This document shows positions 15,729 to 50,400 of a stretch of DNA of 64,000 nucleotides, one piece after another. This DNA comes from Halichondria panicea (Eukaryota > Porifera > Demospongiae > Suberitida > Halichondriidae). Every line of letters starts with the position of its first letter. Position 1 is the stretch's first letter. The notes under the pieces are model-generated. The model was not told the DNA's origin and made no database searches. It worked only from the letters and a program-made list of their open reading frames with translations. Made by a program: the position numbers and the translations under genes. Location of the stretch: positions 8,090,339-8,154,338 of the forward strand of contig NC_087379.1 of NCBI RefSeq assembly GCF_963675165.1, given 5' to 3'.

Positions 15729-18644
15729 TCAAGGTATGATTTTGGGCAAGTCCATGGTTTCAACCACCACCCTCACGTAGATAGCATCGTCCTTGACAAA
15801 TCCACCATTGAGGAGATGATCAATCCTGATAAACCTCGGACACCCTGAGGCAATGTTCATTTCCCTCCGGCCAGGCTTTTGGAAACTGCTTGAATAAGGG
15901 TCAGGCCTGAAACTGTCACTGATGTGCTTCTTCCCGTTTTGATTGATCAGAGAAAGCGTGACTTTCTGTTTGAAGGGCCACTGAAACGAAGCGTCAAAAG
16001 GTCCCCTCATTATGACAAAGAAGAAGCTCAGATGAGAGCCTTTACCCATTCCATCGCCGTTTAGGTAGACTCGAGCACACATCTTGTAGCCATGGCGACT
16101 CGTATAAAAGGGGGTAGAATAAAGAGACAAAGTAACTCCATCTACAGCCTCACGTCTTCGACGATCAAATTCATCGATTTTCCAAAGCAGCACGCCGTTG
16201 TAAGTGGCACGTTCCAGCAATTGTATCCGAAGCTCTTGATCAAGACAGCTACTAAGAGCCCTGTCGACACTATGCTCCAGCTCAACCACTCTTGTGTGTA
16301 GGGCCTCTACACGCTGGGGTGGAACATTTGCTTCACCAAATCCCTGAAAATTAGGAGTACTAGGGACTTCTGAGTGGCCGAATGCAGTACTGCCGATATT
16401 GTACCCAGAGGTTAGGCCTATACCACCCTTGACTTCCATATCAGTAATTCTCTTATCGATCATGGTGAGCAAACTAGTGTTTTGTGTAGCCTGATCTTCG
16501 AGACGCTCAATCTTAACGTCATTTTGAACAGCATGCCTATCTCTACGATCATCCAGAAATTCGATCCTTTGTTCTAGAGCGTCTTGAAGTCGTTCCAAAG
16601 CAGTACTACCGGTATTGTATCCAGAGGTTAGGCGTGCACCAGCCCCACTTCGATCGATCTCAGTCACAGTATCACCAAACACAGTCAGTATGCTTGTATT
16701 GTATGTAGCTTGTTCTTCAATACCAACACCTGCATGTCTGTCTCTACGATCGTCCAGGAATTCGATTTGTTCCAGAGTGTCTTGAAGACGTTCCAAAGCA
16801 TTTGATCGTGTTTCTTGAACTCGTTCCCTGGATTGTCTCTCTCGAAGATGATCGAACAACAGATTGATCTTGGTCATTAATTGTCGAACCTCATCAAAAC
16901 TCTCGGCTTGGACTTGAGCATGATAAACACGATACTGGTCCAAGTGGGTGCTGATGTTTTGCCGAAGGGACTGTAGAAAAACAATACACATATAAAATGG
17001 GTATTTTAAATAATCTTTTGCTCTAACTTACAATGAATGAGCATCCATATTGTCCATAAGGACAGGCCACCTCAGAGAGTGGGCAGGTTCCCTTCTTTAG
17101 GTCAGTGTGCTCCTCAAGCTGTTTGTGTGTGTGTGTGTGTGTTGTGGCATGCAATGATACCATGTCTGTTTGTTGTGACAACCAATATAGGTACAATTCA
17201 AATGATTACACGGCATTGTTATGCTTATTTGGCCTCAGTTTTGCGTATCACTGGCCACTCACGAGTGGCCAGTGATACGCAAAACTGAGGCCACTCAAAT
17301 CCACCATTCTGAATTCAAATGGTGAATAATAATGCCGTGTAATCATAATTTTAATGCACAACCAGGTACAACTAGAGCACTAAAGTGCAAACCCTCGGCA
17401 TGTAGCATGTATGACTAGCACAGCAACTCAAGAGCAAACTAACAACGTACATGCATGAGATATGCACTGTGGATTGGGGATCACAACAAAGAAGCCTGGA
17501 GTCTTAGACTTAGACTCCTGCCAGGCTGGAGTATAGGGTCCAGAGTCAGTCAACAACCCACCCAGTTACAATTCTACTTTGACCCTATTCAATTGTTCCT
17601 GGTACGAATCACTTCAGCTGAAGAAAAGGCTATCACAAACAAACAAACAAACAGACTACTATACCCGTGGCCGCCCACGCGCGCATCGGGTAATTACAGC
17701 CTCAGGACTGATGCCGGTAAGTATAGGCACAAGCCTTGTGATACTCACAAGTGATGCCAAATCAACACAATGTGTACATGGTGACTGATACAGCAGCTAG
17801 TTACTGAGTAGCTATCTACACACACCTCCTGAAGGTTCATCTTGAGGGATGGGTCACACTCGTTGGGACAGCCTCGCGTTATCTTAGTGCAGAGCTTGTC
17901 GAAGTGGGTCTGTTGGAGTAGACAATACATTTTTGTGAATAGCTATACAAGCTTAAATTATGTGCAGTACGTGTAACATAATACCATTTATGAACATGCA
18001 CATGCACTTAAAGCAACACTGACTTGTAGTTGCTGTGTTGGTACATCTTTGCTGCAGTGAGGGCAAGTGGTGGGTCTCATTGCACAGAGCTCCTTCTGGT
18101 GGGCCTCCATGTCCAGCTGCTGGATGTACTGTCCACACTGGGTGCATTGTACATCTCTGTAGTCACAGTTGCACAAGTGGCCCTGTATGCAAAATGAATG
18201 GGGAAAGGAAAGTGGGAATGGCTATGAATTTCATTTAGGAACAAAAACAATACGATGATCAAATGCTGCCGTTTATTCATGGCTCAAATAGACACTTTAA
18301 TAGACAGCTTAGATGCAGTTGAATACCCTCACACAATTTACTGCAGTACATACCTCCAGATCTTTGAGAGCTCCAATCCAAGGGCAGTTTTGAAAGTTGC
18401 AAAACACCTGCAGTTTCAGAATCTCCCTCCTGCAAGCATTATCAGGGAATGTCCCCTCCTGAGTGATTTCTTCTTTATCGAGGGGGCAAACTGGATGGCA
18501 TCGTTTTAAAACAGGTTCCAAACAATCACGACAGAACAGATGACCGCACTCAGTTTGTACAGGGTGACGCATCGCGAAGAGACATATCGGACACTCATGC
18601 CGCTTGAGGAGAGGATGTTTAAAGTTGGCTTCAAAGCCGGGCAT
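15729..18644 (-). CDS. TRAF-family RING E3 ubiquitin ligase, copy A
   Basis: Five exons join to 620 aa: 18644-18354 (RING), 18182-18024, 17909-17826, 17118-17032 (TRAF zinc fingers) and 16970-15729 (coiled coil plus MATH). The RING ligands C18, C21, C33, H35, C38, C41, C53 and D56 are visible, in the TRAF6-like pattern ending CPLD. The C-terminal MATH/TRAF-C domain has LLWKIDEF, FYTSRHGYKMC and MNIASGCP. TRAFs trimerise, bind receptors or adaptors through MATH and make K63-type ubiquitin chains. Compared with copy B at 43548-46070, this protein has 69 extra residues from an in-frame tandem duplication in the linker (the ALERLQD...LTSGYN segment occurs twice). A minus-strand AATAAA lies about 55 nt after the stop. 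The exact vertebrate orthologue is unclear. Confidence 0.92.
17202..17346. mobile_element. Palindromic short inverted-repeat element in TRAF A intron
   Basis: 145 bp with perfect 16-bp terminal inverted repeats (ATGATTACACGGCATT). The core at 17230-17293 is a near-perfect palindrome with 31-nt arms around a 2-nt centre. The corresponding TRAF B intron has only one arm, inverted (near 44808-44845). A neighbouring R4 repeat fragment lies at 17360-17700. Confidence 0.85.
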
Positions 18645-18989
18645 TCCAGCACGTCAAGTTAGTTTCCAGTTCAATGAGAATAAACTTAAGAACTGCATAA
18701 GGAAGGATTCTCAGCTTGCTTCTTGCATGATCTTGGAGCTTTTATACTGAATACACCAGCAATACTCATAATTAATTATTACCATTTACGGCAATGTTCC
18801 ATACCCATACCTAGCCTCGAGACCAGCCGTTGGTTATCTGAAAGAACGCCTGGTCAAGTTCCAATGTTGCACTCGTTCTAGCTGAGTCAGCGTTTATAGC
18901 ATCATAATGATATTCATGGGTAATACACCTTGGGCGGACCTTTGCGGGCAATTAATACCTAGACCTCTGAATGACATGAAGCTGAGGAG

Positions 18990-23504: not shown

Positions 23505-24414
23505 TACTTGAACGTACCAGGTTGAATGTGGTTTCATTAATTACATCGTTATACCCAATGCATAGGTCTCTGAACTTATAGGGTTGGTTAAATGTGGTTC
23601 CATTAATTAAGGGTCTCAAGTCCCAACAGAGGTCACTCTACCTGTCACATGACTGCTTCATTACTGTATGTAAATGTGTGGTAATTACCAGAACTATTGA
23701 GTGCATGCTATTCATATCAATATTCTGCTACACTCCACAGCTCTTATTATCAGCTGTACCATTGTGTCGAGAGTTTGAGCTCTTATGTGGGTATTTATCT
23801 GTCGTCACTAGGTTACGAGGCTATTCTGAAGTTCACTGACCCCCTTCAATTCTGGACCCCCGCCAAGGCAGATCCTAGCCCCATTTGATTGTGCATTTCA
23901 AGCAGAATAAAAGTGAGTAAGAAGCTTAAACTTGCACGTTGGGTTACATGGCCTCTAGCTACAGGCGTCCTTTATTTGAGGCGTGTATTAATTTACAGCT
24001 GAAGTGATCCTGTACCAGGAACAATAGAAAAGGGTCACTAAAGTAGAAAGCTAGAAATGATTAGTGTTGTTGCTTCTTTGCTTATCCTAGCCCCAGAAAA
24101 TACCAGCTAGAGTCTAGACTTCTTTGCTGTGATCCTAGTCCACAGTGCATGTCTCCTGTCTCATCTATACTCAGTAAGCTCCATTCTCAAAAGTTTCAGC
24201 ATGCCTCTGGGGTTTATAGAATTTCATGTTCAAGTTACTTTCTTCTTCCATACTTCATACATACTCTACTGTATTCATGTCAACTACTACTGCTGTATTC
24301 AACAGCCGAGGGTTAGCACTTTCAGTGCTATAGTTAATTTTTGTGGAGTGTTGATATATAATTTGGTTGCCCTGATTACTGCACACTTGACTACAGCTGC
24401 TTGTATACACACAG

Positions 24415-24544
24415 GTTAGTGTTGAGTGGACCTACTACCAACCAAGTGGTGAGCAAGGCGGTGGAGGGAGGCACTGTGGGCACTGTCACTGACATCAAGA
24501 TTCAAGATTGAAAACTTTGATATTGCATTTGGATTTGGAAACCA
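24415..24544 (+). pseudogene. Duplicated ABCF3 exon 5, copy 1 (broken)
   Basis: Matches ABCF3 exon 5 (30542-30658) including the upstream intron and acceptor, but is 130 nt instead of 117. Two small direct duplications (attcaag and atttgg) add bases and create an in-frame stop. It is separated from the next exon 6 copy by Death-TM-MATH gene 1, just as in ABCF3. Confidence 0.9.
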
Positions 24545-24573
24545 GTAAGTCTATCTAAACACAAAAGAAAGAT

Positions 24574-25587
24574 TCATTCAATACTACACTTGTATATCTG
24601 AAACAGAAGTGTGTTGTCTAACAAATAGTTGGGTTTTAGTTCTGATTGCTTGATGAACTTATATATTCCCCAACCCAATTCTGCCCTATCTCTGTCAGTT
24701 ACTCTGTCATCAGTCTTGCTATCCGTCCAGTAATTATATGGAAGTGTACGCTCCCAATGATCTTCTCCATGGAGCTGATCTATTAGTCTGATATATATAG
24801 CGCCTCGAAACGGCCATATTAAAGAATCGTCAAACTCTCCTCTCATGAAGTGCACAAACACAGAGATGTGTGTTCTTTCACCAGTGCGCCAGCCGCTAGC
24901 ACGCACACCGAGACAGATCTTGTAGCCGTGATGGTGGGTGTAGACTGGAGGGGACCACCATTTAGTATAATTAGCCTTGTACTGCTTAAAGTCGATCATT
25001 TTGAGAACTGGTAATCCTTTAAAAGTATAATTCTCCTTGTACTGATCATTGGTTATTTTGAGGTTAGGGGTTGGTACTCTATATGGAGGTACTGTATATG
25101 GAGGTACTGTATATGGAATTGATTGATCTTCATTGCACGGTATCCAATAAACGATGCCAATGGCTAGTATGACTACTAATATGACTGCAACCGCTGAAAT
25201 GAAATAGTAGCTTTGTTTTTCTTTTCTCTCCTCCGGCCTTGGTGGTCTGTTGGCAACATAATGGGCCACCTCTCTAGCAATTTTTTCTTTCCTAATCTTC
25301 AATAAGATGACGAGAAGGTTCTTGAATGTAGCCTCATGCCGGCATTTCTTTATCCATTTTCTTAGAGCTTCTTTATTTGCTGCTTCTGTACCTTCGAAGT
25401 TCCGTGTTCTTCTAACATCTTCCTTATCTGCATTAGAGAGCTCAAACTGGTCACAAAGATCATCTATACAGTTGAATATATCGGCTATTCCAGGAAAATC
25501 AGTCGTAACAATTTTTTGATCCACTTGCTTGTCTGTTAGTCCTGTGTTTATCATCAGTGTGTCCATAGTTAGTTGTCTGTGTGCCAT
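24574..25587 (-). CDS. Death-TM-MATH protein 1 (intronless)
   Basis: One uninterrupted 337-aa frame. Residues about 20-112 form a Death-fold domain (IDDLCDQFELS, ALRKWIKKC, ATFKNLLVILL). A basic stretch (PRPEERKEK) precedes one membrane helix at about 127-149. A stalk repeats VPPYT and VPPYR. Residues about 193-335 resemble the TRAF-C/MATH beta-sandwich ([48 protein letters not shown]). No signal peptide is seen; with the Death domain in the cytosol the MATH-like part would be outside or luminal, in line with the NYT sequons at N186 and N206. I know of no named protein with this order. Function is inferred to be receptor or adaptor signalling. The stop lies 30 bp from the copied ABCF3 exon 5. 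Confidence 0.88.
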   Translation of the reverse strand: MAHRQLTMDTLMINTGLTDKQVDQKIVTTDFPGIADIFNCIDDLCDQFELSNADKEDVRRTRNFEGTEAANKEALRKWIKKCRHEATFKNLLVILLKIRKEKIAREVAHYVANRPPRPEERKEKQSYYFISAVAVILVVILAIGIVYWIPCNEDQSIPYTVPPYTVPPYRVPTPNLKITNDQYKENYTFKGLPVLKMIDFKQYKANYTKWWSPPVYTHHHGYKICLGVRASGWRTGERTHISVFVHFMRGEFDDSLIWPFRGAIYIRLIDQLHGEDHWERTLPYNYWTDSKTDDRVTDRDRAELGWGIYKFIKQSELKPNYLLDNTLLFQIYKCSIE

Positions 25588-25751
25588 CTCTGGCTCTCAA
25601 GTTAGGATCTAGTAATTGTGGGTGGGTGGGTTGAATTGTTGTTATGTTTAAAATACCGGTCACATCTCCTACATTTGCTTTCAATGAAATTCATAGGGAG
25701 AGATGACACGCCTCTGTATTATTGTTATGTCCTCCTCTCTCTCCAATATAG

Positions 25752-25814
25752 TGTTGTCCAATGCCAACCTGACTCTGGCTAGAGGAAGGAGGTACGGATT
25801 AGTAGGACGAAATG
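25752..25814 (+). pseudogene. Duplicated ABCF3 exon 6, copy 1 (5-nt deletion)
   Basis: Matches ABCF3 exon 6 (31927-31994), the exon leading into the first Walker A loop ([10 protein letters not shown]), with flanking intron on both sides. It lacks five nucleotides near its start and is therefore out of frame with exon 5. Confidence 0.9.
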
Positions 25815-25878
25815 GTGAGGGGTTGTCTCCATGGTAATGAATACTGTTACTATACTAAATGTGAATTTATTATTTCAA

Positions 25879-26814
25879 TCACGCAACACTACAGTTATGT
25901 ATCTGAAACAAAAGTGTGTTGTCTAATAAATAGTTGGGTTTTAGTTCAGAGTGCTTGATGAACATCCGTTTTCCCTCACCCCATTCTGCCAAATCTCCCT
26001 TAGTCACTCTGGCACAAGCCTTGCTGTCTGTCATGTCATCATATACAGCTGTATACTCCACATGATCTTCTCCATGGAGGTGATCTATTAGTCTGAAATG
26101 TATGGTGCCTTGAAACGGCCATTTCAAAGAATCGTCAAACTCTCCTCTCATGAAGTGCACGTACACAGAGATGTGTGTTCCTTTTGCAGTGCCATAGCCG
26201 TTAGCGTGCACTCTGAGACAAATCTTGTAGCCCTGATGGTGGGTGTAGACTGGAGGGGAGAACCAATGAATATTATTTTTCCTGTACTGCTCAAAGTCGG
26301 TCATTGTGAGAACTGGTAATCTATCTTGATCTTGACTATACAGTGCCATTGACAAAAGAACTGTACCTACGGCTAATTGGACTAACATGAAACTGCAGAC
26401 TTGCCTCCCTGTCTCCTCTTCCAGCCTTGGTTGGTTATTCGTTTTTTTTTGTTGAGGTCTGTTGGAAATGTAATGGGCCACGTCTTTAGCCACATCTCCT
26501 TTCTTATTGTCCAATAAGATGGTGAGAAGGTTCTTGAATGTAGCGTTATAAGGGTCTTGTTCTCTCCATATTTTTAGAGATTTTTTATTCGATTCTTTTG
26601 TACCTTTAGAATGTCGCAATCTATCGACATCTGCTTTTTCTTCAGCAGAGAGCCCAAACTGCTCACAAAGGTCATCTATACAGTAGAATAGATGGGCTAT
26701 TTTAGGCAAATCTATCTCAGCAATTTCTTGGTTCACTTGCTCATCTGTTAGTCTTGTGTGTATCATCAGTACCTCGATTGTTAGTGGTCCATTTTCTTTT
26801 TGTGGTACTGACAT
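25879..26814 (-). CDS. Death-TM-MATH protein 2 (intronless)
   Basis: A 311-aa single frame of the same family and more diverged. The Death domain spans about 22-116 ([28 protein letters not shown]). The membrane helix lies at about 140-160 (FMLVQLAVGTVLLSMALY). The MATH-like region spans about 167-309 (PVYTHHQGYKICLRV, HISVYVHFMRGEFDD, LLDNTLLFQI). The VPPYT stalk repeat is absent, giving a much shorter stalk. One NCS sequon lies at the very C-terminus. Unlike genes 1 and 3 it has ABCF3 exon 6 copies on both sides and no exon 5 copy, so one duplication joint lies within this interval. Confidence 0.87.
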   Translation of the reverse strand: MSVPQKENGPLTIEVLMIHTRLTDEQVNQEIAEIDLPKIAHLFYCIDDLCEQFGLSAEEKADVDRLRHSKGTKESNKKSLKIWREQDPYNATFKNLLTILLDNKKGDVAKDVAHYISNRPQQKKTNNQPRLEEETGRQVCSFMLVQLAVGTVLLSMALYSQDQDRLPVLTMTDFEQYRKNNIHWFSPPVYTHHQGYKICLRVHANGYGTAKGTHISVYVHFMRGEFDDSLKWPFQGTIHFRLIDHLHGEDHVEYTAVYDDMTDSKACARVTKGDLAEWGEGKRMFIKHSELKPNYLLDNTLLFQIHNCSVA

Positions 26815-26937
26815 ATCTGGCCCTCTACATTTCTTGTGTGGGCGATTAGCACATGGCTAAGTGGTTTTGTGCAATGAATTTAATTGGGAGCACATGATAC
26901 TACCTAACAGTATGTCCCCTCTCTCCACTATATATAG

Positions 26938-27005
26938 TGTCCTGTTGTCCAATGCCAACCTGACTCTGGCTAGAGGAAGGAGGTACGGATTAGTAGGACG
27001 AAATG
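26938..27005 (+). pseudogene. Duplicated ABCF3 exon 6, copy 2
   Basis: Full-length 68-nt match to ABCF3 exon 6 with intact acceptor and donor, next to the 5' end of Death-TM-MATH gene 2. It has no promoter or flanking ABCF3 exons, so it is not a gene on its own. Confidence 0.9.
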
Positions 27006-27193
27006 GTGAGGGGTTGTCTCCATGGTAATGAATACTAGCTGTTACTAAATGTAAATTCCAAATCTCATTTTGCTATCTAGCCAGTTTTTACATTGTAGTT
27101 ATGGCCACCATTATTTTGGTGAATATATAGTGTAATAACATGGTTGCCCTGATTATACTGCACACTTGACTACAGCTGCTTGTATACACACAG

Positions 27194-27291
27194 GTTAGTG
27201 TTGAATGGACCTACTACCAACCAAGTGGTGAGCAAGGCGGTGGAAGGAGGTACTGGCACTGACATAAGATTGATATTGCATTTGGAAACCA
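27194..27291 (+). pseudogene. Duplicated ABCF3 exon 5, copy 2 (deleted)
   Basis: Matches ABCF3 exon 5 but is 98 nt instead of 117. Small deletions remove part of the [15 protein letters not shown] region and shift the frame. The splice sites persist. Confidence 0.9.
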
Positions 27292-27321
27292 GTAAGATCT
27301 ATCTAAACACAAAAGAAAGAT

Positions 27322-28350
27322 TCATTCAATGCTACACTTGTGTATCTGAAACAGAAGTGTGTTGTCTAACAAATAGTTGGGTTTTAGTTCAGATTGCTTG
27401 ATGAACTTATATATTCCCCAACCCAATTCTGCCCTATCTCTGTCAGTTACTCTGTCATCAGTCTTGCTATCCGTCCAGTAATTGTAATCAATTATTTGAT
27501 CCCAGTGATCTTCTCCACGGAGCTGATCTATTAGTCTGACGGATATATTGCCTCGAAACGGCCAATTCAAAGAATCGTCAAACTCTCCTCTCATGAAGTG
27601 CACAAACACAGAGATGTGTGTTCTTTCACCAGTGCGCCAGCCGCTAGCACGCACACCGAGACAGATCTTGTAGCCGTGATGGTGGGTGTAGACTGGAGGG
27701 GACCACCATTTAGTATAATTAGCCTTGTACTGCTTAAAGTCGATCATTTTGAGAACTGGTAATCCTTTAAAAGTATAATTCTCCTTGTACTGATCATTGG
27801 TTATTTTGAGGTTAGGGGTTGGTACTCTATATGGAGGTACTGTATATGGAGGTACTGTATATGGAATCGATTGATCTTCATTGCACGGTATCCAATAAAC
27901 GATGCCAATGGCTAGTGTGACTACTAATATGACTGCAACCGTTGAAATGAAATAGTAGCTTTGTTTTTCTTTTCTCTCCTCTGGCCTTGGTGGTCTGTTG
28001 GCAACATAATGGGCCACCTTTCTAGTAATTTCTTCTCTCCTAAGCTTCAATAAGATAATGAGAAGGTTCTTGAATGTAGCCTCATGTCGGCATTTCTTTA
28101 TCCATTTTCTTAGAGCTTCTTTATTTGCTGCTTCTGTACTTTCGAAATTCCGTAATCTTCTGACATCTTCCTTATCTGCATTAGAGAGCTCAAACTGGTC
28201 ACAAAGATCATCTATACAGTTGAATAGATGGGCTATTCCAGGAAAATCAGTCTCAACAATTTCTTGGTTGACTTGCTTGTATGTTAGTCCTGTATTTATC
28301 ATCAGTGTGTCCATAGTTAGTTGTCCATTTCCTCTTTGTTGTCCTGACAT
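27322..28350 (-). CDS. Death-TM-MATH protein 3 (intronless)
   Basis: A 342-aa single frame, near-identical to gene 1 over most of its length. The Death domain is at about 22-116, the membrane helix at about 132-154, then the same VPPYTVPPYRVP stalk and a MATH-like domain to the end. The N-terminus (MSGQQRGNGQLTMDTL) is a few residues longer than in gene 1. Differences from gene 1 cluster in the Death domain (ESTEAANKEAL, LKLRREEITRK) and in the loop after LIDQLRGEDHW. Both frames are intact despite many substitutions, which argues for selection. It is flanked by ABCF3 exon 5 and exon 6 copies. Confidence 0.88.
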   Translation of the reverse strand: MSGQQRGNGQLTMDTLMINTGLTYKQVNQEIVETDFPGIAHLFNCIDDLCDQFELSNADKEDVRRLRNFESTEAANKEALRKWIKKCRHEATFKNLLIILLKLRREEITRKVAHYVANRPPRPEERKEKQSYYFISTVAVILVVTLAIGIVYWIPCNEDQSIPYTVPPYTVPPYRVPTPNLKITNDQYKENYTFKGLPVLKMIDFKQYKANYTKWWSPPVYTHHHGYKICLGVRASGWRTGERTHISVFVHFMRGEFDDSLNWPFRGNISVRLIDQLRGEDHWDQIIDYNYWTDSKTDDRVTDRDRAELGWGIYKFIKQSELKPNYLLDNTLLFQIHKCSIE

Positions 28351-28622
28351 CTCTGACCCTCAAGTTAGGAACTAGCTACATGTATAGCTAGTACTAAAAC
28401 TAATGCTTTCTTGTGTGGGTGAGTCACACAGGTATGTGTTGACTAAGTGGTATTTGTGTCTTATGTTACTTTAGAACTACTAGGATGTATAGGGCTGCAT
28501 GGATCAGATGGAAAAGAAAAATGTAGGGGAGGCAAAGCCCCTGCCGCGTATGCATATATAAACTAGGGGTGACATGCTCCCCCAGAAAAGTTGTAACAGT
28601 ATGTCCTTTCTCTCCACTATAG

Positions 28623-28690
28623 TGTCCTGTTGTCCAATGCCAACCTGACTCTGGCTAGAGGGAGGAGGTACGGATTAGTAGGACGAAATG
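28623..28690 (+). pseudogene. Duplicated ABCF3 exon 6, copy 3
   Basis: Full-length 68-nt match to ABCF3 exon 6 with both splice sites kept; a single a-to-g change is visible in the RRYG region. It lies upstream of the 5' end of Death-TM-MATH gene 3. Confidence 0.9.
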
Positions 28691-28806
28691 GTGAGGGGTT
28701 GTCTCCATGGTAATGAATACTATAAGCAAATGGAAGCCTGGCTGCACTAAATTCCAAATCTCAATTTTGTTATCCAGCCAGTTATGACCACCATGTGAAT
28801 ACTGCC

Positions 28807-28814
<8 letters not shown>

Positions 28815-28863
<49 letters not shown>

Positions 28864-28882
28864 TGTGTGTGTGTGTGTGTGT
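28815..28882. repeat. (TG)n microsatellite
   Basis: A run of TG dinucleotides with one interruption, between the last ABCF3 exon 6 copy and the duplicated FTSJ1 exon. Confidence 0.95.
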
Positions 28883-28973
28883 GCATCCTTTGTGCTTCAA
28901 GTGTAGAACCATTTCCATGTACTTGATCTCATGCAGTACACAATGTAACTTTAGTTTTATTTCCCCTGTACAG

Positions 28974-29135
28974 AGTGCAGAGGATGGTTGCTATGAGCCC
29001 CTGGCTCCTAATCAGTCCCCAATCAACCCTCCCTACAAGACTGCCTGTGAGCTCAAGAAAGGAAGCCATGTCTCTCAGCCAGGGAGGACTACCGCCATTA
29101 TGAACTCTGATCCTACACCTGTAGCACGCCTATAA
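28974..29135 (+). pseudogene. Duplicated last exon of FTSJ1
   Basis: Matches FTSJ1 exon 8 (14932-15087) with its upstream intron end and about 25 bp of 3' UTR (overall about 28938-29161). The frame is open but has one extra codon (QPGRTTAIM) and a changed tail ending PVARL before TAA. No other FTSJ1 exon is nearby, so it is an orphan exon. It sits 270 bp upstream of the ABCF3 start. Confidence 0.92.
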
Positions 29136-29405
29136 GTATGTGTGGACACTCAAACTGATTTGTATAATAATACCTGGTACTGTATCTGTTGTTGTTTCAT
29201 TGACGTCCAAAACATGCCTACAAAAAGAATCGATGGCCGTGAAACAATCTGCTCTGTTTGATGCATTAATAATTATTGGCTCCTACTAGTTGGCATTGTT
29301 GTCCTCTGGTTCCATGGTTGCTTAGTGGTGGAGGATGGTCTATAGAGACTAGTGCATGCAACGACCCGCTCCCAGTCCCCACGAGATTAGAACAGCTAGC
29401 TATAC

Positions 29406-32400
29406 ATGATGAGTAGCACTGTAGGATCATTCCTGAGGAGAGAGTGCCCCGGGCTAGAAGATGAAATATTCCAGTATATATGTGGTGAGGCATATTCATG
29501 AGAGATGAGACCATGATGTTATTCATTGCTCTGATATAAACAGGAGTACTAGACAGTCCGGATGATTTCCAGAGTGTTGATGATGTTCACGAAGCCGTGG
29601 GTGAGGTATTATCTGAGTCGACCAATGGGGACGGAGCACACACACTCTGCTCTCGGCTTTACTCCATTCTGATTGGTCAACACAAGCCGAGTGACAAACG
29701 GGTGACGATGACATCGACAGTTGATAGAGGAAAGAAATTATTGGAAGCTCCTGTAAACTTGTCCACAAAGTTGAAGGATCAAGGTGTGTGTGCGTGGCTA
29801 ACTCGTGTAGTAGTCTGGCTGCCACACCGTTGTTAATGTATATGGGTGGTCTCTGTTATTGGTATGTAGGGTAACTCGGGTGTGTATGCTAGACTAACGA
29901 TGCGTTCACTTGCAGGTGATGAGGTCTCTGCAATGAACTCCATTTGGATGATGCCAGATAATGGCAGAGCTGTGAGTGAATTACTGTACATTGTCAATTT
30001 TTCTGCTAATTTGGCTCATTTTCAAAGGTTTTTACCAGCAATATTTTCTAGTAATACGGTATATACAGACCTCACTGTATGTATCTGTGTACTAGCCTCC
30101 GTGTTGCTATGGTGAACTACAGGTATGTTTCTTCATTGCAGGCAGTGAATCAGAAGAAACTGGAGAAAGTCGACGCTAAACTGAAAGTGAAATTGGAAAA
30201 GAAGGCACAGAAAGATCAACTCTCGTCAGCAGCTGCTGCTGAAAAAGGGTGAGCCAGGATCATTGTAACTATGGACCATTATCTGGTGGGCATTTGCAGT
30301 CACACTGGTCGGTGGTGGTTGGTACTAACCACCTCTAGACTACATGTAGACAAAAAATAACCACCTCTTAGGCAGGCTTAGTTTACTACATAAAAGAGGC
30401 AACTTTGTGTACTGAATTGTGATAGAGGATTGAAAATTGCCATCACTTCACGAATAGTCTGAGCTCATCACTGTACACAGTGTAATAACACGGTTGCCCT
30501 GATTACTGCACACTTGACTACAGCTGCTTGTATACACACAGGTTAGTGTTGAGTGGACCTACTACCAACCAAGTGGTGAGCAAGGCGGTGGAGGGAGGCA
30601 CTGGGGGCACTGTCACTGACATCAAGATTGAAAACTTTGATATTGCATTTGGAAACCAGTAAGTTCTATCTAAGTACAAAAGAATAATTATGTCATACAC
30701 TATACTTACTATACTAGTACGAAGTTATGTATCTGAAACTTGAGTGTGTTGTCTAATAAACTAACTAGACCAGTAAGTTCACAAAAGAAAGATTCATAAT
30801 TTTATCATTCAATACTATACTTGTGTATCTGAAACAGAAGCGTGTTGTATAACAAATAGTTGGGTTTTAGTTCAGAATGCTTGATCAAAATTGGGTTTCC
30901 CAGTCCAAGTGTGGCCTCTTCTTCCTCAACCACTCTGTCAGAGTACATACTTTCAACCGTGTTATTATATATAACTGTATGCTCCACATGATCTTCTCCA
31001 TGGAGCTGATCTATTAGTCTGAAATGTATAGTTCCTCGAAACGGCCATTTTAAAGAATCATCAAACTCTCCTCTAATGAAGAATATACCCGCTCCAACGT
31101 GTCTTCCTTTGCCTGGATATCCATTGGGATACACACCCAAAATTATCTTGTAGCCCCTGTGATGGGTGTAGACTGGAGGGGAGCGCCATACAGTGTCATT
31201 CTCCTTGTACTGCTCAAACTTGGTCATCTTGAAAATTGGGGTTGGTAGTCTAATTGAGTGGTCTTCAATGCACGGAGCCAGTACCCAAAGAGCCAGACCT
31301 GTGGCTAGTATGACAACACCTGCTGAAATGAAATACTGGTAATAGCAAAAATCCTTCTTCTCCTCCTTCGGCCTTGGTTGCTCATTTGTTGCTCCTCTGT
31401 TGGAAATGTATTCAGCCACGTCTTTAGCCACACCTCCTTTCTTAATGTCCAATAATATGATAAGCAGGTTCTTGAATGTAGCCATATAAGGGAATCGATT
31501 TCTCCAGTATTCTAGAGCTTTTTTAGTCGAATTTTTTGTACTTCTATGCTGTAGTCTTTTGACATCTGTTTTTTCTGGAGGAGAGAGCCCAAACTGCTCA
31601 CAAAGGTCGTCTATATTGTCAAATAGGTCGGCTATTTTAGACAAATCCTTCTCAGCAATTTCTTGGTTCACTTGCTCGTCTGTTAGTCCTGTATTTGTCA
31701 TCAGTTTGTCGATTGTTAGTTCTCCATATTCTTTTTGTTCTGACATATCTGGCCCTCAAGTTAGGAACTAGCTACATGTACTAAATGCTTTCTTGTGGGG
31801 GGGTCTGACAAAGTGGGTGTTTTTGTTATTGTGAATTCATTGGGAGCACATGAGAGACAGTAACAGTACATGTTCAATATTCATGATGTACCCACTAACA
31901 GTATGTCCTCCCTCTCTCCACTATAGTGTCCTGTTGTCCAATGCCAACCTGACTCTGGCTAGAGGAAGGAGGTACGGATTAGTAGGACGAAATGGTGAGG
32001 GGCTGTCTCCATAGTCTATAAGCAACTATTTTTATAGTGTCATACTTTCCAGAACAAAATAACCATGAGGCTAGCATACCTGTAGTGTTACATGTGTGTC
32101 TCTCCCCTGCCCTAACCACACCCCTCACACACGTGCAGGTGTTGGCAAGTCCACCCTCCTCCGCTCTATGGCGTGTCGTGAGCTGCGTCTACCAGCTGGT
32201 GTGAGTGTACTACACGTGGAGCAAGAGGTCACCGGGGACAACACACTAGCACTGGATAGTGTACTCGAGTGTGACACTGAGAGAGTGCAGCTGCTCGCTA
32301 GAGAGGGGGAGCTACTGGCCTCAGGGGACAAGGACACAGCAGCAGGCAGGTCTGTGTACCCCAGGGAGGGGGGTGTTTTAAGTATAGTAATCCACACACA

Positions 32401-35400
32401 ATAATGAAAAAAAAATTGATAGTTCCAGTGTTTAGCTTAGTGTGTACTGTACTGTGTGTTTGACTGCTAGTGAGCATTCGTATGATTATGGTTTGTGTGT
32501 ATATTTTCAGTACTTTCATCTGCCCCTCCCTCTGTATGTGTAGCGCTTCTGATGAGCTGGCTGAGGTATACCTTCGACTACAGGAGATAGACGCTGACAA
32601 AGCACCAGCAAGGTAACTGTACCCAGTAGATCAAGTACCATCTTACACACTGTGCTCACTCACTCACAGAGCTGGCTGTATTCTGGCTGGTCTGGGGTTC
32701 ACTCCGGAGATGCAAGGAATGCAGACAAGGTGAGGGGGAGTGGCTAGTGGGTGTGGTCATTATGTGAGCTGGCCCCACCCATTTTATACAGAGAGTTTTC
32801 CGGAGGATGGAGAATGAGATTAGCACTGGCTAGGACACTGTTTGCAAGGTAAGCAGTTTTTGAGAGACGAAAGTGCTGAAATTTATTGGTAATTTGTGTT
32901 TCTGCAGACCTGACGTTCTTCTGCTCGATGGTAAGATACTTTATCAGCACTAGAGTTATTGACTATTCACTGTCTCTCTTGATACAGAGCCTACTAACAT
33001 GTTGGACATCAAGGCCATCATGTGGCTGCAAGACTTCCTCCAGGTGAGCTAGTTCCAGCGGGGGGGGGGGCTGTTATCCCGTCCATGTTGTTCACGGTTC
33101 ACTATGCCCACCCACACACCCATTCATGTCCAATCATGTCCAACAACACCATCGTAATATATTTATATAGTGTACATACATATGAACTACTATACCCCCC
33201 TACTATACCCCCCTACTATACCCCCCTACTATCCTCCGCTACTATACCCCCCTACTATCCTCCGCTACTATCCTCCGCTACTATCCTCCGCTACTATCCT
33301 CCCCTACTATCCTCCGCTACTATACCCCCCTACTATCCTCCGCTACTATACCCCCCTACTATCCTCTCCTACTATACCCCCCTACTATACCCCCCCTACT
33401 ATACCCCCCTACTATACCCCCCTACTATACCCCCCTACTATCCTCTCCTACTATACCCCCCTACTATACCCCCCCTACTATACCCCCCTACTATACCCCC
33501 CTACTATCCTCTGCTACTATACCCCCCCCTACTATACCCCCCTACTATCCTCCGCTACAATCCTCCGCTACTATGTTCCCCCTCACAGACGTGGCCGTCC
33601 ACCCTCCTGACAGTGTCCCATGACCGAGTGTTTCTGACTGACGTGTGCACTGACATCATCCACCTCCACTCCAGGGCTCTCACCTACTACAAAGGAAACT
33701 ATGAGGTGGGGTGTGGTCTATGGTGTGTGGGTGTGGTCTATGAGGTGGAGGGTCTGTCATTCATTATGGGAGATATTTTTGAACATGTGTTTGTGCTAAC
33801 TGTTCTGTGCGTGCTTAGAAAGATCCCAAAACGATTTGATCTCAGACGCACTGGCTGACCATACCATATGCTATATGCTCCGCCACTTGTGTTAATTGCA
33901 TAGAAGTTGGAGTGGACAGCTGTTATTAATTAGTTCACACATGTGTGCTTTAGCGTACTATGGTTTGTAACAGCTGATTGTTGTGGTTCCACAGGTGTTC
34001 ATGTCTACAAAGACAGAGCGACTAAAGAACCAGCAACGAGAATATGAATCACAAATGCAGTATCGGCAACATCTACAGGTACGCCCCCACACACACACCA
34101 CACACTCCTCACACCCCTCACACACCTCACAGGAGTTCATTGACCGCTGGAGATACAACGCCAAGAGATCCAGTCAAGCTCAGATGAGAATAAAGATACT
34201 AGAGAAGCTACCAATCCTCACTCCAGTGGTTGGAGATGGAGAGGTGGTCTTACGCTTCCCTGACGTTGACAAACTGTCCCCTCCCATACTACAACTCACT
34301 GAGGTGTGAAACTGCTACTAAAATGTTGTCCAACTACTCGCATTCATTATTAATTTATACGCACATACATCATACACGTTTGTAATGAACATCTTTCAGC
34401 AGCCATAACTGATAATCCAATTTCAAAAATGTTATGATTTTCTGAAAGCTTACGAAAATACCTTTCAAATGGTGTGTTTCAATTCAAAATTTCGTTGGGG
34501 CCCTAATTTGTCATTTTTCGGCTTTGGACCATGGGCTATTTATTATCCATGGTATGGCCAAATTGACATCGCTCGAATATTAACTTTAATGACACCATTT
34601 GAAAGGTCTCTTTTTAAGCTTTCGGAAAATCAATTGCAATTGGATCTACGGAAGTCAAGTTATGGCAGCTGAAAAAGTGTCCAAACCATTGATTTAACGG
34701 CCGTTGATGGTGATATAACTGAAGATCTTTCAGCAGCCACAACTTTTGTTCTGATGATCCAATTTCAAAAATGTTATGATTTTCTGAAAGCTTACGAAAA
34801 TACCTTTCAAATGGTGTGTTTCAATCAAAAATTTCGTTGGGGCCCTAATTTGTCATTTTTCGGCCTTGGACCATGGGCTATTATTCATTGTATGGCCAAA
34901 TTGACATCGCTCGAATATTAACTTTAATGACACCATTTGAAAGGTCTCTTTTTAAGCTTTCGGAAAATCAAAAAATTATTGCAATTGGATCTACGGAAGT
35001 CAAGTTATGGCAGCTGAATGAGTCTCCAAACCATTGTTAGTGGTGGTGTAGTTGAAGATCTTTCAGCAGCCATAATTTAGTCACCCTTTGTGCAAGTTGC
35101 AGTGTGCCTTCAGCCCCTCCCCCTCCCCGTCTCTTTAGGTTGTGTTCGGCTACTCCAGTGACCGTGTGTTGTTCAAGCAGCTCAATATCAACGCAGACAT
35201 GGAGTCACGTATAGCAATGGTAGGTCTGTAGTGTGTGTGTGGGTGTGTGTGTGTGTGTAGGTATCGGAAAAACAAATAATTTCCCAGGGGCCAATGTTTT
35301 CGCGGATTTCACCAAGCTGCAAAAATATGATTCTATATACAAGTCCGCTAAAAAACGTACACACAAAATTGGCCATTTTTTCTAGACCTTCGAAAATTAC

Positions 35401-43547: not shown

Positions 43548-46070
43548 TCAAGGTATGATTTTGGGCAAGTCCATGGTTTCAACTACCACCCTCACGTAGA
43601 TAGCATCATCCTTCACAAATCCACCATTGAGTAGATGATCAATCCTGATAAACATCGGACACCCTGAGGCAATGTTCATCTCCCTCCGGCCAGGCTTTTG
43701 AAAACTGCTTGAATGAGGGTCAGGCCTGAAACTATCGCTGATGTGCTTCTTCGCGTTTTGATTGATCAGAGAAAGCGTGACTTTCTGTTTAAATGGCCAC
43801 TGAAGCAAAGCGTCAAAAGGTCCCCTCATTATGACAAAGAAGAAGCTCAGATGAGAGCCTTTACCCATTCCATCGCCATTTAGGTAGACTCGAGCACACA
43901 TCTTGTATCCATGGCGACTTGTATAAAAAGGGGTGGAATAAAGAGATAAAGTAACTCCATCCACAGCTTCACGTCGCCGACGATCAAATTCATCGATTTT
44001 CCAAAGCAGCACGCCGTTATAAGTGGCACGTTCCAGCAATTGGATCCGAAGCTCTTGATCTAGACAGCTACTAAGAGCCCTGTCAACACTATGCTCCAGT
44101 TCAACCACTCTTGTGTGTAGAGCCTCTACACGCTGGGGTGGAACATTCGCTTCACCAAATCCTTGATAGTTGGGAGTAATGGGGACTTCTGAGTGGCCAA
44201 ATGCAGTGCTGCCGGTATTGTACCCAGAGGTTAGGCCTGTACCACCCTTGACTTCAATCTCAGTAACTCTCTTATCGATCACTGTGAGCAAACTAGTATT
44301 TTGTGTCGTTTGTTCCTCAAGGCGCTCAATTTTAACTTCATTTTGATCGGCGTGTCGATCTCTGCGATCGTCAAGGAATTCAATTCTTTGTTCCAGAGCG
44401 TCTTGCAGACGTTCTAAAGCATTGGATCGTGTTTCCAGGCTACCAACCCTCTCAAGAAGATGATCAAACGACAGATTAAGCTTGGTAATCAATTGTCGAA
44501 TCTCATCGAAACTCTCGGCCTGGACTTGCGCGTGATAAACGCGATACTGGTCCAAGTGGGTGCTGATGTTTTGCCGAAGGGACTGTAGAAAAAAACGGGT
44601 ACTTTTAATAATAATTTTTCCTTTGCACTTACAATGAATGAGCATCCATATTGTCCATAAGGACAGGCCACCTCAGAGAGTGGACAGGTTCCCTTCTTTA
44701 GGTCAGTGTGCTTCTCAAGCTGTTTGTGTGTTTGTGGCATGCAGTGATACCATATCTGTTTGTTGCAACAACCAATGCCAGGTACAGTTTAATATTATAA
44801 ATTTGAGTAGCCAGTGATACGCAAAACTGAGGCCAAATAAGCACAACACTGAATGCAAAACATGGTGACTAGATAACAGCAGCTAGTCATGCAGCTACAC
44901 ACACCTCCTGAAGGTTCATCTTGAGGGATGGGTCACACTCGTTGGGACAGCCTCGCGTTATCTTAGTGCAGAGCTTGTCGAAGTGGGTCTGTTATGTGTT
45001 TGCAATTAACATCAAAGAAGTGATACTGAAAGTCTTTCTTGTAGATAAACAATACGTAAATGCTATAGCTACAAGGATAACATTATTATGTACAAGAATA
45101 ACAGCATATGCACTTAAGAAACCATCACTGACTTGTAGTTGCTGTGTTGGAACATCTTTGCTGCAGTGAGGGCAAGTGGTGGGTCTCATTGCACAGAGCT
45201 CCTTCTGGTGGGCCTCCATGTCCAGCTGCTGGATGTACTGTCCACACTGGGTGCATTGTACATCTCTGTAGTCACAGTTGCCCAAGTGGGCCTGCATTGA
45301 GTGGGAGGGTAGAGAGAGAATGTGGTGGGAGTTGTGTTAATTGAATAATGAATCTCATTATATTCTGTACCCTCCTCAACCTCAACACCATGCCAGTAAT
45401 TGTTTTCCTAGTTCTTTGTTTACATGTATATGTATACCTTTTGGATGATCTCATTATTATAGCAAGTATAAAGCAGCCCACCACCCTTCATTAAACCATT
45501 AGTCAAAAAATAAGCAAACAAAAAATTACTATCAAGAAACAATCAATTGTGTCTCCACGTCCACAGCTATACAAAGGTAAGTATTGTGCTTTATAGCTTA
45601 CTTAGAATTTTGAGTATGATAAATTGCAAAAAATTACCTGAGATAACTGTAAACTTTTATGGAGTGTTGTCATGGTCTCAGTTAGATTTATCTCAAGTGG
45701 ATTTTTTTTGCAATTTACCATTAATTTTTGCCCCTAATCTCTAAGTGAGCTCTGCAAAGTATTAATGTATTGCAAATACCTCCAGATCTTTAAGAGCTCC
45801 AATCCAAGGACAGTTTTGGAAGTTGCAAAACACTTGCAGTTTCAGAATCTCCCTCCTGCAAGCATTGTCAGGGAATGTCCCCTCCTGAGTGATTTCTTCT
45901 TTATCAAGGGGACAAATTGGATGGCGTCGTTTTAAAACAGGCTCCAAACAATCACGGCAGAACAGATGACCGCACTCTGTTTGTACCGGGTGACGCATCG
46001 CAAAGAGACATATTGGACACTCGTGTCGCTTAAGTAAAGGGTGTTTAAATTTGGCTTCAAAGCCAGGCAT
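43548..46070 (-). CDS. TRAF-family RING E3 ubiquitin ligase, copy B
   Basis: Five exons join to 551 aa: 46070-45780, 45291-45133, 44988-44905, 44719-44633 and 44582-43548. The architecture matches copy A: RING (C18, C21, C33, H35, C38, C41, C53, D56), three exons of TRAF-type zinc fingers (CDYRDVQCTQCG, CPHCSKDV, CPYGQYGC), a coiled-coil linker and a C-terminal MATH domain (YNGVLLWKIDEF, HGYKMCARVYLNGDG, MNIASGCPMF). It has a single copy of the linker segment that copy A has twice, so it probably represents the ancestral form. It is transcribed divergently from the intact ARHGEF10-like gene. Confidence 0.93.
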
Positions 46071-47448: not shown

Positions 47449-50400
47449 ATGAGCAAGGCACCAAATGCAATGTCTGAAGGACAATACCCAGACTATCAGT
47501 ATCTCTCAGAAATCCAGACGAGCATGGACATGACCAGTGCTGAATATGAGTATCCCCTCTCATTGGACAACACACCCCCTCCTTGTCCATCCCCACCAGA
47601 CCATGAAGACCAGCCTGGTGGCAGCCAGTCAGAGCAGCCTATCTATGAGAATGTGGCCTCAAGCAATGGACACCTTCCCCCAATTGCTGATGACTCCGAT
47701 ATCGATAGTGATTATTCCGAAGTCGAACATGATGCCCGCATCAGAATACACAGCAAGAAAAAGGAACGCCCACACAATGGTAGTGAGTTAGAGAACAGTA
47801 GCAAGATATATGTCCAGGGACATTTGCCTGATTATCACTCCTCTATTGACGCTCGTCTTCGAAGTGTGTCTCAACTGAACGAACTTGTGAGTAGTCTATC
47901 AGAGCAGGGAATTTATCAGGGGTTGGCTATGACCGACCAAGACAAGGAGGAGATCGGAATAATGCCTGAATGTGTGTACATGACAACTAATCTGCTGGAG
48001 AATCTTGGAGAGCAGCTAAACGTTGTTGAGGAGATGGAGACATTGGCCTCAGGCGAGGAGGACGTTAGAGGTAAACTGGGGAGTAAGACTGACCCCAATG
48101 TGTTCAAACCTAAGATCAGGAGACAACTACAGCACAGAGCCAGTGAGTGGTCTGAACAATTAGATACTCCATTGAGGATTGTCCGAGGTCCTCTCATTGT
48201 ATCCCTTCCCCATGGAGTGTCTATCAATGGGTCACATTGTGGAAGTTGCTAGGCATTTATCAGGCAATCCCTTAATTGTTACAAGACTTTCATTATTTAT
48301 TGTGCTCATACTACGTGTACCAACTTCTCCTAGTAACTTAGTCATGTGCTCACTATCACTATTGTGAATACTAGTGTGTACATTGTCCTCTAAATATGGT
48401 TGAGTATTATTCTATCTTATAATAATTCTTAGGTGCTCCCACCTCCGCCCAACTACCCACCTCCCCTCGAGCTGTGGTGGTTCCTCGCTATCGTAACTAC
48501 CTCATCCGACCACCTCCCCTACCTCCCATCTCACAGCAGGCCACTCTGGCTGAGGTAACCTAAGCTGACACTTGAAAATAATCTAGTCTGGTTAATTATT
48601 TTTTTTAAATATTAAATTTGTGTCTGTGTCTTTAAAACTGTATCTTGTTTCCTCCCATGCAGCGCAAAGCATACAGTGCAGTTGAAAGCTTGCTCAAGAG
48701 TGAGGCTGCTCTGCTCAGCTCCTTGCACATTGCAATCCAGGTACATTATTAGTGCTACTTGTTCATACAAGGCCTTTGATTTTGGGACATGCTGATCTGA
48801 TCTGTAGTTCTAGAAATAATTATAATATTAATATTATGCGAGTATAAAATATTACGTTACAAAAATGATACGCGGGTTGTATGATGCAATGGGGATTGTA
48901 CATTATTCGAGGCCTGTACAATCCCCATTCACAAAAATGATACGCTGGTTGTATGATGCATCATACAACCAGCATATCATTTTTGGTCAAGCGGTGCAAA
49001 TTTATGCAATTCGATAGGCGCTCAGCATAAATAGCATCAGTTTGTAGCACTACGGTATCTAGATGACCATAGTGTATACTCACCACTTAACCTCCTTCAC
49101 AGTGCGGCCTGGGTTAGAGGCTAACTGTGGCAGTAAACATGTTTTTTAAGGGCTGGAAAATTCCCACAAACGCTATGAATATCATTAATTTCTATACATT
49201 ATAAACTTCTTGTGCACATCTACCATGGTACTTCAATTGCACCCCCACCTTCACAACTGTACCCCCCTACCTTCACAACTGTACCCCCCACCTCCACAAC
49301 TGTACCCCCCTACCTTCACAACTGTACCCCCCCTACCTTCACAACTGTACCCCCCCTACCTTCACAACTGTACCCCACCACCTCCACAACTGTACCCCCC
49401 CACCTTCACAACGGTACCCCCCCTACCTTCACAACTGTACCCCACCACCTCCACAACTGTACCCCCCCCACCTTCACAACTGTACCCCCCCTACCTTCAC
49501 AACTGTACCCCACCACCTCCACAATTAATTGTACCCCCCCCACAGGTATACATGAGACCATTGAAGGAGCTCTCCCTCGGCCCTAGCCCCATCCTCAGCA
49601 AGCAGCAGGTGGCCACATTGTTCGGGCCCATAGAGCAGATCTTGTCTGCCCAAGAGTTGTTCTATTCTGCTCTCACCTCTCGGACACTGGCATGGAACAC
49701 AGAGCAGAAGATTGGTGACGTCTTCCTATCATCTGTTAGTTGTTTAAAATTTGGGAATATTTTGTCAATGTTTTTGTTTTTCCCTTGTTAAAATAGCTGT
49801 CAATCATCTTGTTATGCATCAATCAGCAGATTTTAATGTGCAACAATAAATTCTAAGTAATTTTTCTTTCAGATCAGGTTGCTAGTGATGTAATGTTAGA
49901 TAGATACATTACACTAGCAACCTGATCATAATTCATATTTTTTTGCAGCTGGCCACCAAAGAAGTGATTCGTAGCTACTCCACGTATGTCAATAACTTCA
50001 CTGCGGCCATTAGCGTGCTGGAACAAGGACTTAAGAAAAAGGTTAAGTTCATCTCCTTCCTCAAGGAGAAGTACAAACAGAGCAACACTAGCCTGAGTCT
50101 ACAGGGGCTACTACTGAAGCCCATCCAGAGGTTTCCTCAATATATAATGTTCATTCAGGTAATTGTATGTGAATAGCATACGTAGGTGTTCAGTACAAAC
50201 CTTGTTGCCATGACAAAACGTTGGTGTTGTTCAGGCACATTTGCCAAACATTTCACACAGTTATACCAGTAGAGCATAGATACCAGTAACCCCCTTGCTC
50301 ATAACTGTGTGCGCTGGTAAAAATGTAATGGTTTGCATTCTTGCTTTTACTACTACCTACCAGTGTATATAATTACTAATTATTTAAAAGTACCTACACA

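Follow-up and report, generated by a model that had tools for sequence, protein, structure and literature searches.

A stretch of 64,000 nucleotides of the sponge Halichondria panicea (contig NC_087379.1; the whole stretch is termed the window below) carries four genes whose products are predicted to unite a Death domain, a hydrophobic helix and a TRAF-C domain in a single chain, which raises the question of what such a protein might do. Death and TRAF-C domains normally meet via separate adaptors, and a chain in which a membrane helix joins the two would, in an animal lineage that branched off early, short-circuit the route that leads from binding to cell death or an NF-kB response. Three clustered silicatein-type motifs, the one examined having silicatein alpha as its best match among solved structures, are in keeping with a siliceous sponge. 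Below, C3 and C12 denote contigs 3 and 12, c1 to c4 the window copies, and c5 a distant copy on contig 3.

Domain architecture of the Death-helix-TRAF-C proteins

The four genes are open single-exon frames on the minus strand, each encoding a Death domain, a hydrophobic transmembrane (TM) helix and a TRAF-C domain in this order, and each was delineated from its open reading frame, Pfam matches and TM prediction. The first, c1 (24574-25587; 337 amino acids (aa)), has its Death part at 25234-25587, its TM helix at 25147-25209 and TRAF-C at 24577-25017, while the corresponding parts of c2 (25879-26814; 311 aa), for which an AlphaFold model and fold match were additionally obtained, lie at 26446-26814, 26341-26403 and 25882-26322. 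In c3 (27322-28350; 342 aa) they are found at 27982-28350, 27895-27957 and 27325-27765, and in c4 (30805-31746; 313 aa), whose assignment also draws on its position, at 31384-31746, 31273-31335 and 30808-31248. The preliminary description of this DNA had reported these four intact frames, their domain order, the single hydrophobic helix and the union of both signalling modules within a single protein, all of which were borne out, and the family of related intact copies that it had proposed was widened to eight. The additional members are c5, a full-length copy at C3:781362-782357 that is 96% identical to c1 and located 7.3 Mb from the window, and three intact frames of 340, 327 and 360 aa at C12:3866900-3873700 with approximately 33% identity to c1, giving five copies on contig 3 and three on contig 12.

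The TRAF/meprin MATH domain (PF21355) scored well over the Pfam cut-off in all four window copies, and a comparison of c2 with solved PDB sequences yielded 28 matches at E <= 0.001, every one of them a TRAF domain; TRAF-C was furthermore recognised by a fold match of the predicted structure. The AlphaFold model of c2 displays a Death fold, with RAIDD as the best structural match, such that both folds that the preliminary description had supposed are present in the model. A contig 12 member was modelled as a helix bundle followed by a long helix (103-154), a further helix (156-179) and TRAF-C, the long helix lying ahead of the membrane helix (in TRAFs, a trimerising coiled coil precedes TRAF-C), and the matches listed in a fold search with this model were TRAF, meprin and SPOP chains. 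At E <= 1, no Pfam family for RING or TRAF-type zinc fingers was matched in any of the four window copies (in L006, a RING-type paralogue, zf-TRAF scored over its cut-off and the RING models under theirs), nor were cysteine-rich TNFR repeats, an astacin protease domain, a NACHT domain or a kinase domain matched in any of the four.

These features set the proteins against several known systems. They share with TRAF1-6 the TRAF-C domain, by sequence and fold, but lack RING and zinc fingers, which places them outside the TRAF family proper, and carry a hydrophobic helix instead. The predicted Death fold is shared with RAIDD (the best match), FADD, TRADD, RIPK1, Fas and TNFR1, whereas the TNFR repeats or kinase of these adaptors and receptors are missing. 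Unlike the meprins, which are MATH-containing astacin proteases, they have no protease domain, their MATH domain is TRAF-type by sequence, and a Death domain is present. The order Death, helix and TRAF-C was not found in the open-access literature among the matches listed, as judged by titles and abstract openings, and no open-access paper was found under hyphenated compound names of Death, TRAF, MATH or DD; the chain is perhaps a new combination of known domains, the literature negative hinting at such novelty.

Decayed relatives also occur, among them a related frame at C12:3827823-3828743 that lacks the start of the Death domain. At C3:8254000-8262500, a 1284-residue open frame (L061) adjoins a RING-TRAF gene; by eye it is a mosaic of RING/zinc-finger-like, Death-like and endonuclease/reverse-transcriptase sequence, and it is a degenerate relative.

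Hydrophobic helix, predicted orientation and binding groove

The best Kyte-Doolittle hydropathy over 19 residues (KD19) was 2.03-3.12 in all eight Death-TRAF proteins, and the second-best segment reached at most 1.34 in each. Among 25 RING-type TRAF loci, several of which are partial frames, KD19 was at most 1.13 in 24, the sole exception (L012, KD19 1.99) having its segment where the zinc-finger region is read in a shifted frame, and it was at most 1.34 in all six further zinc-finger-type TRAF loci. Lysine plus arginine counts for the 20-residue flanks of the helix (N-terminal/C-terminal) were 5/0, 5/2, 5/0, 4/3, 5/1, 4/3, 5/2 and 4/2, and thus greater on the N-terminal side in eight out of eight proteins. 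Because of this bias, the Death domain would be expected to lie in the cytosol and TRAF-C outside the cell or in a lumen, an orientation that the charges favour and that is reversed relative to death receptors such as Fas and TNFR1, which are type I membrane proteins. Since TRAF-C would in that case be placed outside or in a lumen, a membrane receptor appears likelier than a cytosolic adaptor or a simple decoy; of the earlier proposal that the family acts as a receptor or decoy for the TRAF pathway, it is the receptor that is favoured, the simple cytosolic decoy being less likely.

A search with c1 returned at least 123 matches (119 of 809 candidates scored), nearly all to TRAF-C, a domain for which the genome holds over 100 loci. 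That of the Death-TRAF proteins falls within an expanded family of single-exon RING, zinc-finger and coiled-coil TRAFs, which is clustered at C3:7.30-7.42 Mb. Groove positions are also highly variable in two zinc-finger-type TRAF arrays, located at C12:6.25-6.51 Mb and C12:0.53-0.57 Mb.

The receptor-binding groove was followed at TRAF2 positions, including D399 and S467, which we take to belong to it. Hot spots for receptor binding in TRAF2 are given in the accessible part of PMC6125299 as F410, L432, F447, F456 and C469, S453-S455, and R393 and Y395. Across 30 TRAF-C sequences (five Death-TRAF and 25 RING-type), ten groove columns had a mean entropy of 2.29 against 0.91 overall, a value reached by none of 20000 random column sets, and in the RING-type sequences alone (22, after three near-identical rows were dropped) the values were 2.11 and 0.71 (0/20000). 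For 40 sequences of the contig 12/8 type, in three of which the N-terminal zinc fingers were read, groove entropy was 1.97 against 1.13 (19/20000), and in the window copies c1 to c4, with c5 dropped, the ten hot-spot columns gave 1.12 against 0.56 (26/20000 as high). This comparison is one without a direct control for surface exposure, and the alignment of the 453-456 loop is uncertain, as it differs between runs; the excess nevertheless persists within residue classes, both polar (106/20000 in the RING-type and 71/20000 in the contig 12-type set) and hydrophobic (0/20000 and 391/20000, respectively). Two multi-exon TRAF-like genes on the minus strand of the window, identified by Pfam and groove residues, serve as internal controls with a conserved groove: one has its last exon at 15729-17027 and a RING exon at 18309-18653, the other its last exon at 43548-44672 and a zf-TRAF exon at 44992-45336. 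In both of these canonical genes, 11 of 12 groove positions equal TRAF5 and the twelfth carries the TRAF2 residue.

The binding pocket, seemingly the most variable part of the wider TRAF family, points to a possible receptor-like recognition role. The ratio of non-synonymous to synonymous differences (pN/pS) was 0.95 in the groove and 0.56 elsewhere in the 22 RING-type rows (bootstrap 0.57-1.66 versus 0.43-0.72), and 0.78 versus 0.45 in the 40 zinc-finger-type rows. Positive selection at the groove was considered and found no clear support, as pS is raised along with pN, and the dN/dS ratio (omega) was not convincingly above 1. A comparable case is that of the Caenorhabditis elegans MATH and F-box adaptors, which likewise form a large lineage-specific expansion; these are ubiquitin-ligase adaptors, whereas the sponge set consists of RING/zinc-finger TRAFs and a Death-helix branch, in which no clear sign of positive selection emerged. 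For the nematode adaptors, the accessible part of PMC5392922 describes positively selected sites in substrate-binding domains and induction by infection. Since variation in the surrounding TRAFs is centred on the groove, sponges may have diversified TRAF-C for recognition in a manner resembling these nematode MATH proteins, as far as that part of PMC5392922 describes them, and innate recognition in sponges thereby becomes open to a concrete test.

A receptor-like reading and its alternatives

The explanation that we tentatively prefer, while rating it somewhat short of an even chance, is that the members of this small family cross the membrane once in N-in/C-out (type II) orientation, keeping the Death domain in the cytosol and exposing a receptor-like TRAF-C head. 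It builds on the frames, on both folds as recognised from sequence and structure prediction, on the hydrophobic helix with its charge bias, on the occurrence of eight copies and on the heightened variability of groove positions in the TRAF-C families, and it is also in line with the Death relatives that lie directly upstream of NACHT-type frames. If the genes are expressed and their products inserted in the predicted orientation, TRAF-C would face the exterior or the lumen of an internal compartment, and the Death domain the cytosol; the groove would bind a ligand, ligand-driven clustering would bring Death domains together, and Death-domain assembly could then start, as with Fas, TNFR1 or RAIDD, with cell death or NF-kB-type signalling as the output. 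A broader proposal, which we regard as rather doubtful, is that TRAF-C serves as a diversified recognition module in Halichondria panicea, its variation peaking where vertebrate TRAFs hold their bound peptide, the Death-helix branch carrying the variable head across the membrane and coupling it directly to Death signalling; if true, this would represent an animal receptor class built without leucine-rich repeat (LRR), immunoglobulin or lectin ectodomains.

Several observations weigh against the receptor-like reading. The Death domains of the window copies score 17.1-22.3 bits, under the Pfam cut-off of 22.6, and no Pfam Death match at E <= 1 was obtained in any of the three contig 12 proteins. 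The charge excess amounts to just one residue in c4 and one contig 12 copy, sequons and cysteines fail to set the membrane proteins apart from their RING-TRAF paralogues, and TRAF-C domains in other proteins work mostly in the cytosol, meprin with its extracellular MATH domain being the exception. In c1 to c4, pN/pS is 0.79 in the groove and 0.72 elsewhere, so there is no sign of groove-focused selection in these copies, and the codon-model omega of the five contig 3 copies (0.873) is indistinguishable from 1 (log-likelihood -3112.70 versus -3113.31 with omega fixed at 1). Finally, c1, c3 and c4 have a CTAAC...CAG stretch right before the ATG (minus strand, upstream of 25587, 28350 and 31746); as this stretch looks like a 3' splice site, these three may have a further exon upstream.

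Alternatively, the proteins could be RING-less, membrane-tethered TRAF regulators with both domains in the cytosol, the helix being re-entrant or a surface anchor, that bridge Death complexes to TRAFs or act as dominant negatives against RING-TRAFs. The lack of sequon enrichment and of RING and zinc fingers by Pfam would fit such a role, as would the fact that the other members of the TRAF-C family that were read are RING, zinc-finger and coiled-coil TRAFs without a strong hydrophobic helix. However, the single strong helix with N-side positive charge in all eight proteins predicts opposite sides of the membrane, and the residues for PxQE-type receptor peptides are mostly not retained: none of five copies keeps more than two of the 12 groove positions, and the Death-TRAF proteins differ from TRAF1/2/3/5 in most hot-spot residues. 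We consider this alternative possible but doubtful. The same anatomy as in the preferred type II reading would also suit a protein of an internal membrane (endoplasmic reticulum, endosome or phagosome), in which a lumenal TRAF-C senses ingested material and the cytosolic Death domain signals. Sponges take up waterborne microbes, according to the accessible part of PMC11229196, yet no internal-membrane mark was noted in the sequence, where no search was aimed at targeting signals, and this placement is judged unlikely.

It may also be asked whether a protein is made at all, or whether the genes are by-products of domain shuffling under weak constraint, with little or no transcription and frames that have yet to decay. 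The omega near 1 is in keeping with this, the Death part being at 1.01 in the codon model (linker plus helix 0.69, TRAF-C 0.77; contig 3 copies), as are the mosaic relative with reverse-transcriptase sequence, the contig 12 frame without a Death start, and the disrupted exons, copied from a neighbouring gene, that are interspersed among the Death-TRAF genes; moreover, the eight copies were counted for being intact. Conversely, a frame drifting neutrally to 0.3 substitutions per site would acquire a mean of 8.6 stops, an expectation that speaks for retention of these frames rather than of every relative, because the copies were chosen as intact. Whole-frame omega by the Nei-Gojobori method (NG86) ranges from 0.23 (c1-c5, a recent pair) to 0.97 (c1-c2), and the helix and domain order are kept across contigs at approximately 33% identity. 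The by-product explanation thus seems improbable, and the open frames, the low c1-c5 omega and the architecture kept on contig 12 argue that a protein is probably made. The earlier suggestion of divergence under selection is upheld in part at best: the codon-model omega is the result that weighs most against it, a value near 1 having been named beforehand as a refutation.

Relatives, origin and genomic setting

A search with the Death part of c2 matched at least 150 places (150 of 567 candidates scored), the majority being frames approximately 110-250 aa long, and single-exon Death domains are greatly expanded on contigs C7, C6, C5, C13 and C3. Two relatives of the window Death part were examined in Pfam, one falling under the Death cut-off and the other being without a Death match. 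Of 24 Death loci whose surroundings were read, five have a NACHT-type P-loop frame downstream (Pfam NACHT was confirmed in the one tested, E 2.4e-20), a kinase frame and a weak match to COR-B being among the other neighbours. This related Death exon recalls the NOD-like receptors (NLRs) of sponges, with their Death/CARD-NACHT-LRR order, whereas the Death-helix-TRAF-C chains are without NACHT.

One versus two origins of the contig 3 and contig 12 fusions were compared by trees, rows with a stop (L037, L048 and L116) being omitted from those of the Death domain. The Death tree (44 rows) spoke against a single clade, with an approximately unbiased test value (p-AU) of 0.023, when L033 was counted as an outsider; L033, however, joins the contig 3 copies at an ultrafast bootstrap (UFBoot) of 100. 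When L033 was left out, the eight copies grouped together at support values of 49/54, rising to 87/67 when L115 and L121 were also removed. A single clade was unrejected for TRAF-C (p-AU 0.147; 39 rows, 16 of 20 zinc-finger-type rows dropped), and the contig 12 TRAF-C domains group with a RING-TRAF at C3:8.286 Mb (UFBoot 98).

The window genes are interspersed with exons of a neighbouring gene, which from its motifs we take to be ABCF-like. Self-comparison and tblastn located exon A (30543-30659, plus strand) of the intact gene, which starts at approximately 29409, with frame-broken copies at 24416-24533 and 27195-27292, and exon B (31913-31996, plus strand), which recurs at 25745-25816, 26924-27007 and 28609-28692. 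Exon A, a Death-TRAF gene and exon B make up the unit repeated in tandem, c2 having no exon A beside it, and c4 is placed within the intact gene, in antisense orientation, with exon A on one side and exon B on the other. Across 24340-32030, the exon B copies are 93-96% identical (core 98-100%) and those of exon A 87-90% identical despite a broken frame in two of them, whereas the adjacent Death-TRAF frames show differences of 23-27% (5% between c1 and c3); this contrast would be accounted for by gene conversion, or by unequal exchange, with the exons as anchors. Conserved blocks beside the Death-TRAF genes were considered as promoters and rejected, as they are the ABCF-like exon copies on the opposite strand.

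Elsewhere in the window, no Rfam family was detected at gathering scores. Proline-rich repeats with several frames open, the first with a 13-nt period, occupy 33160-33860 and 49180-49790 and are probably non-coding.

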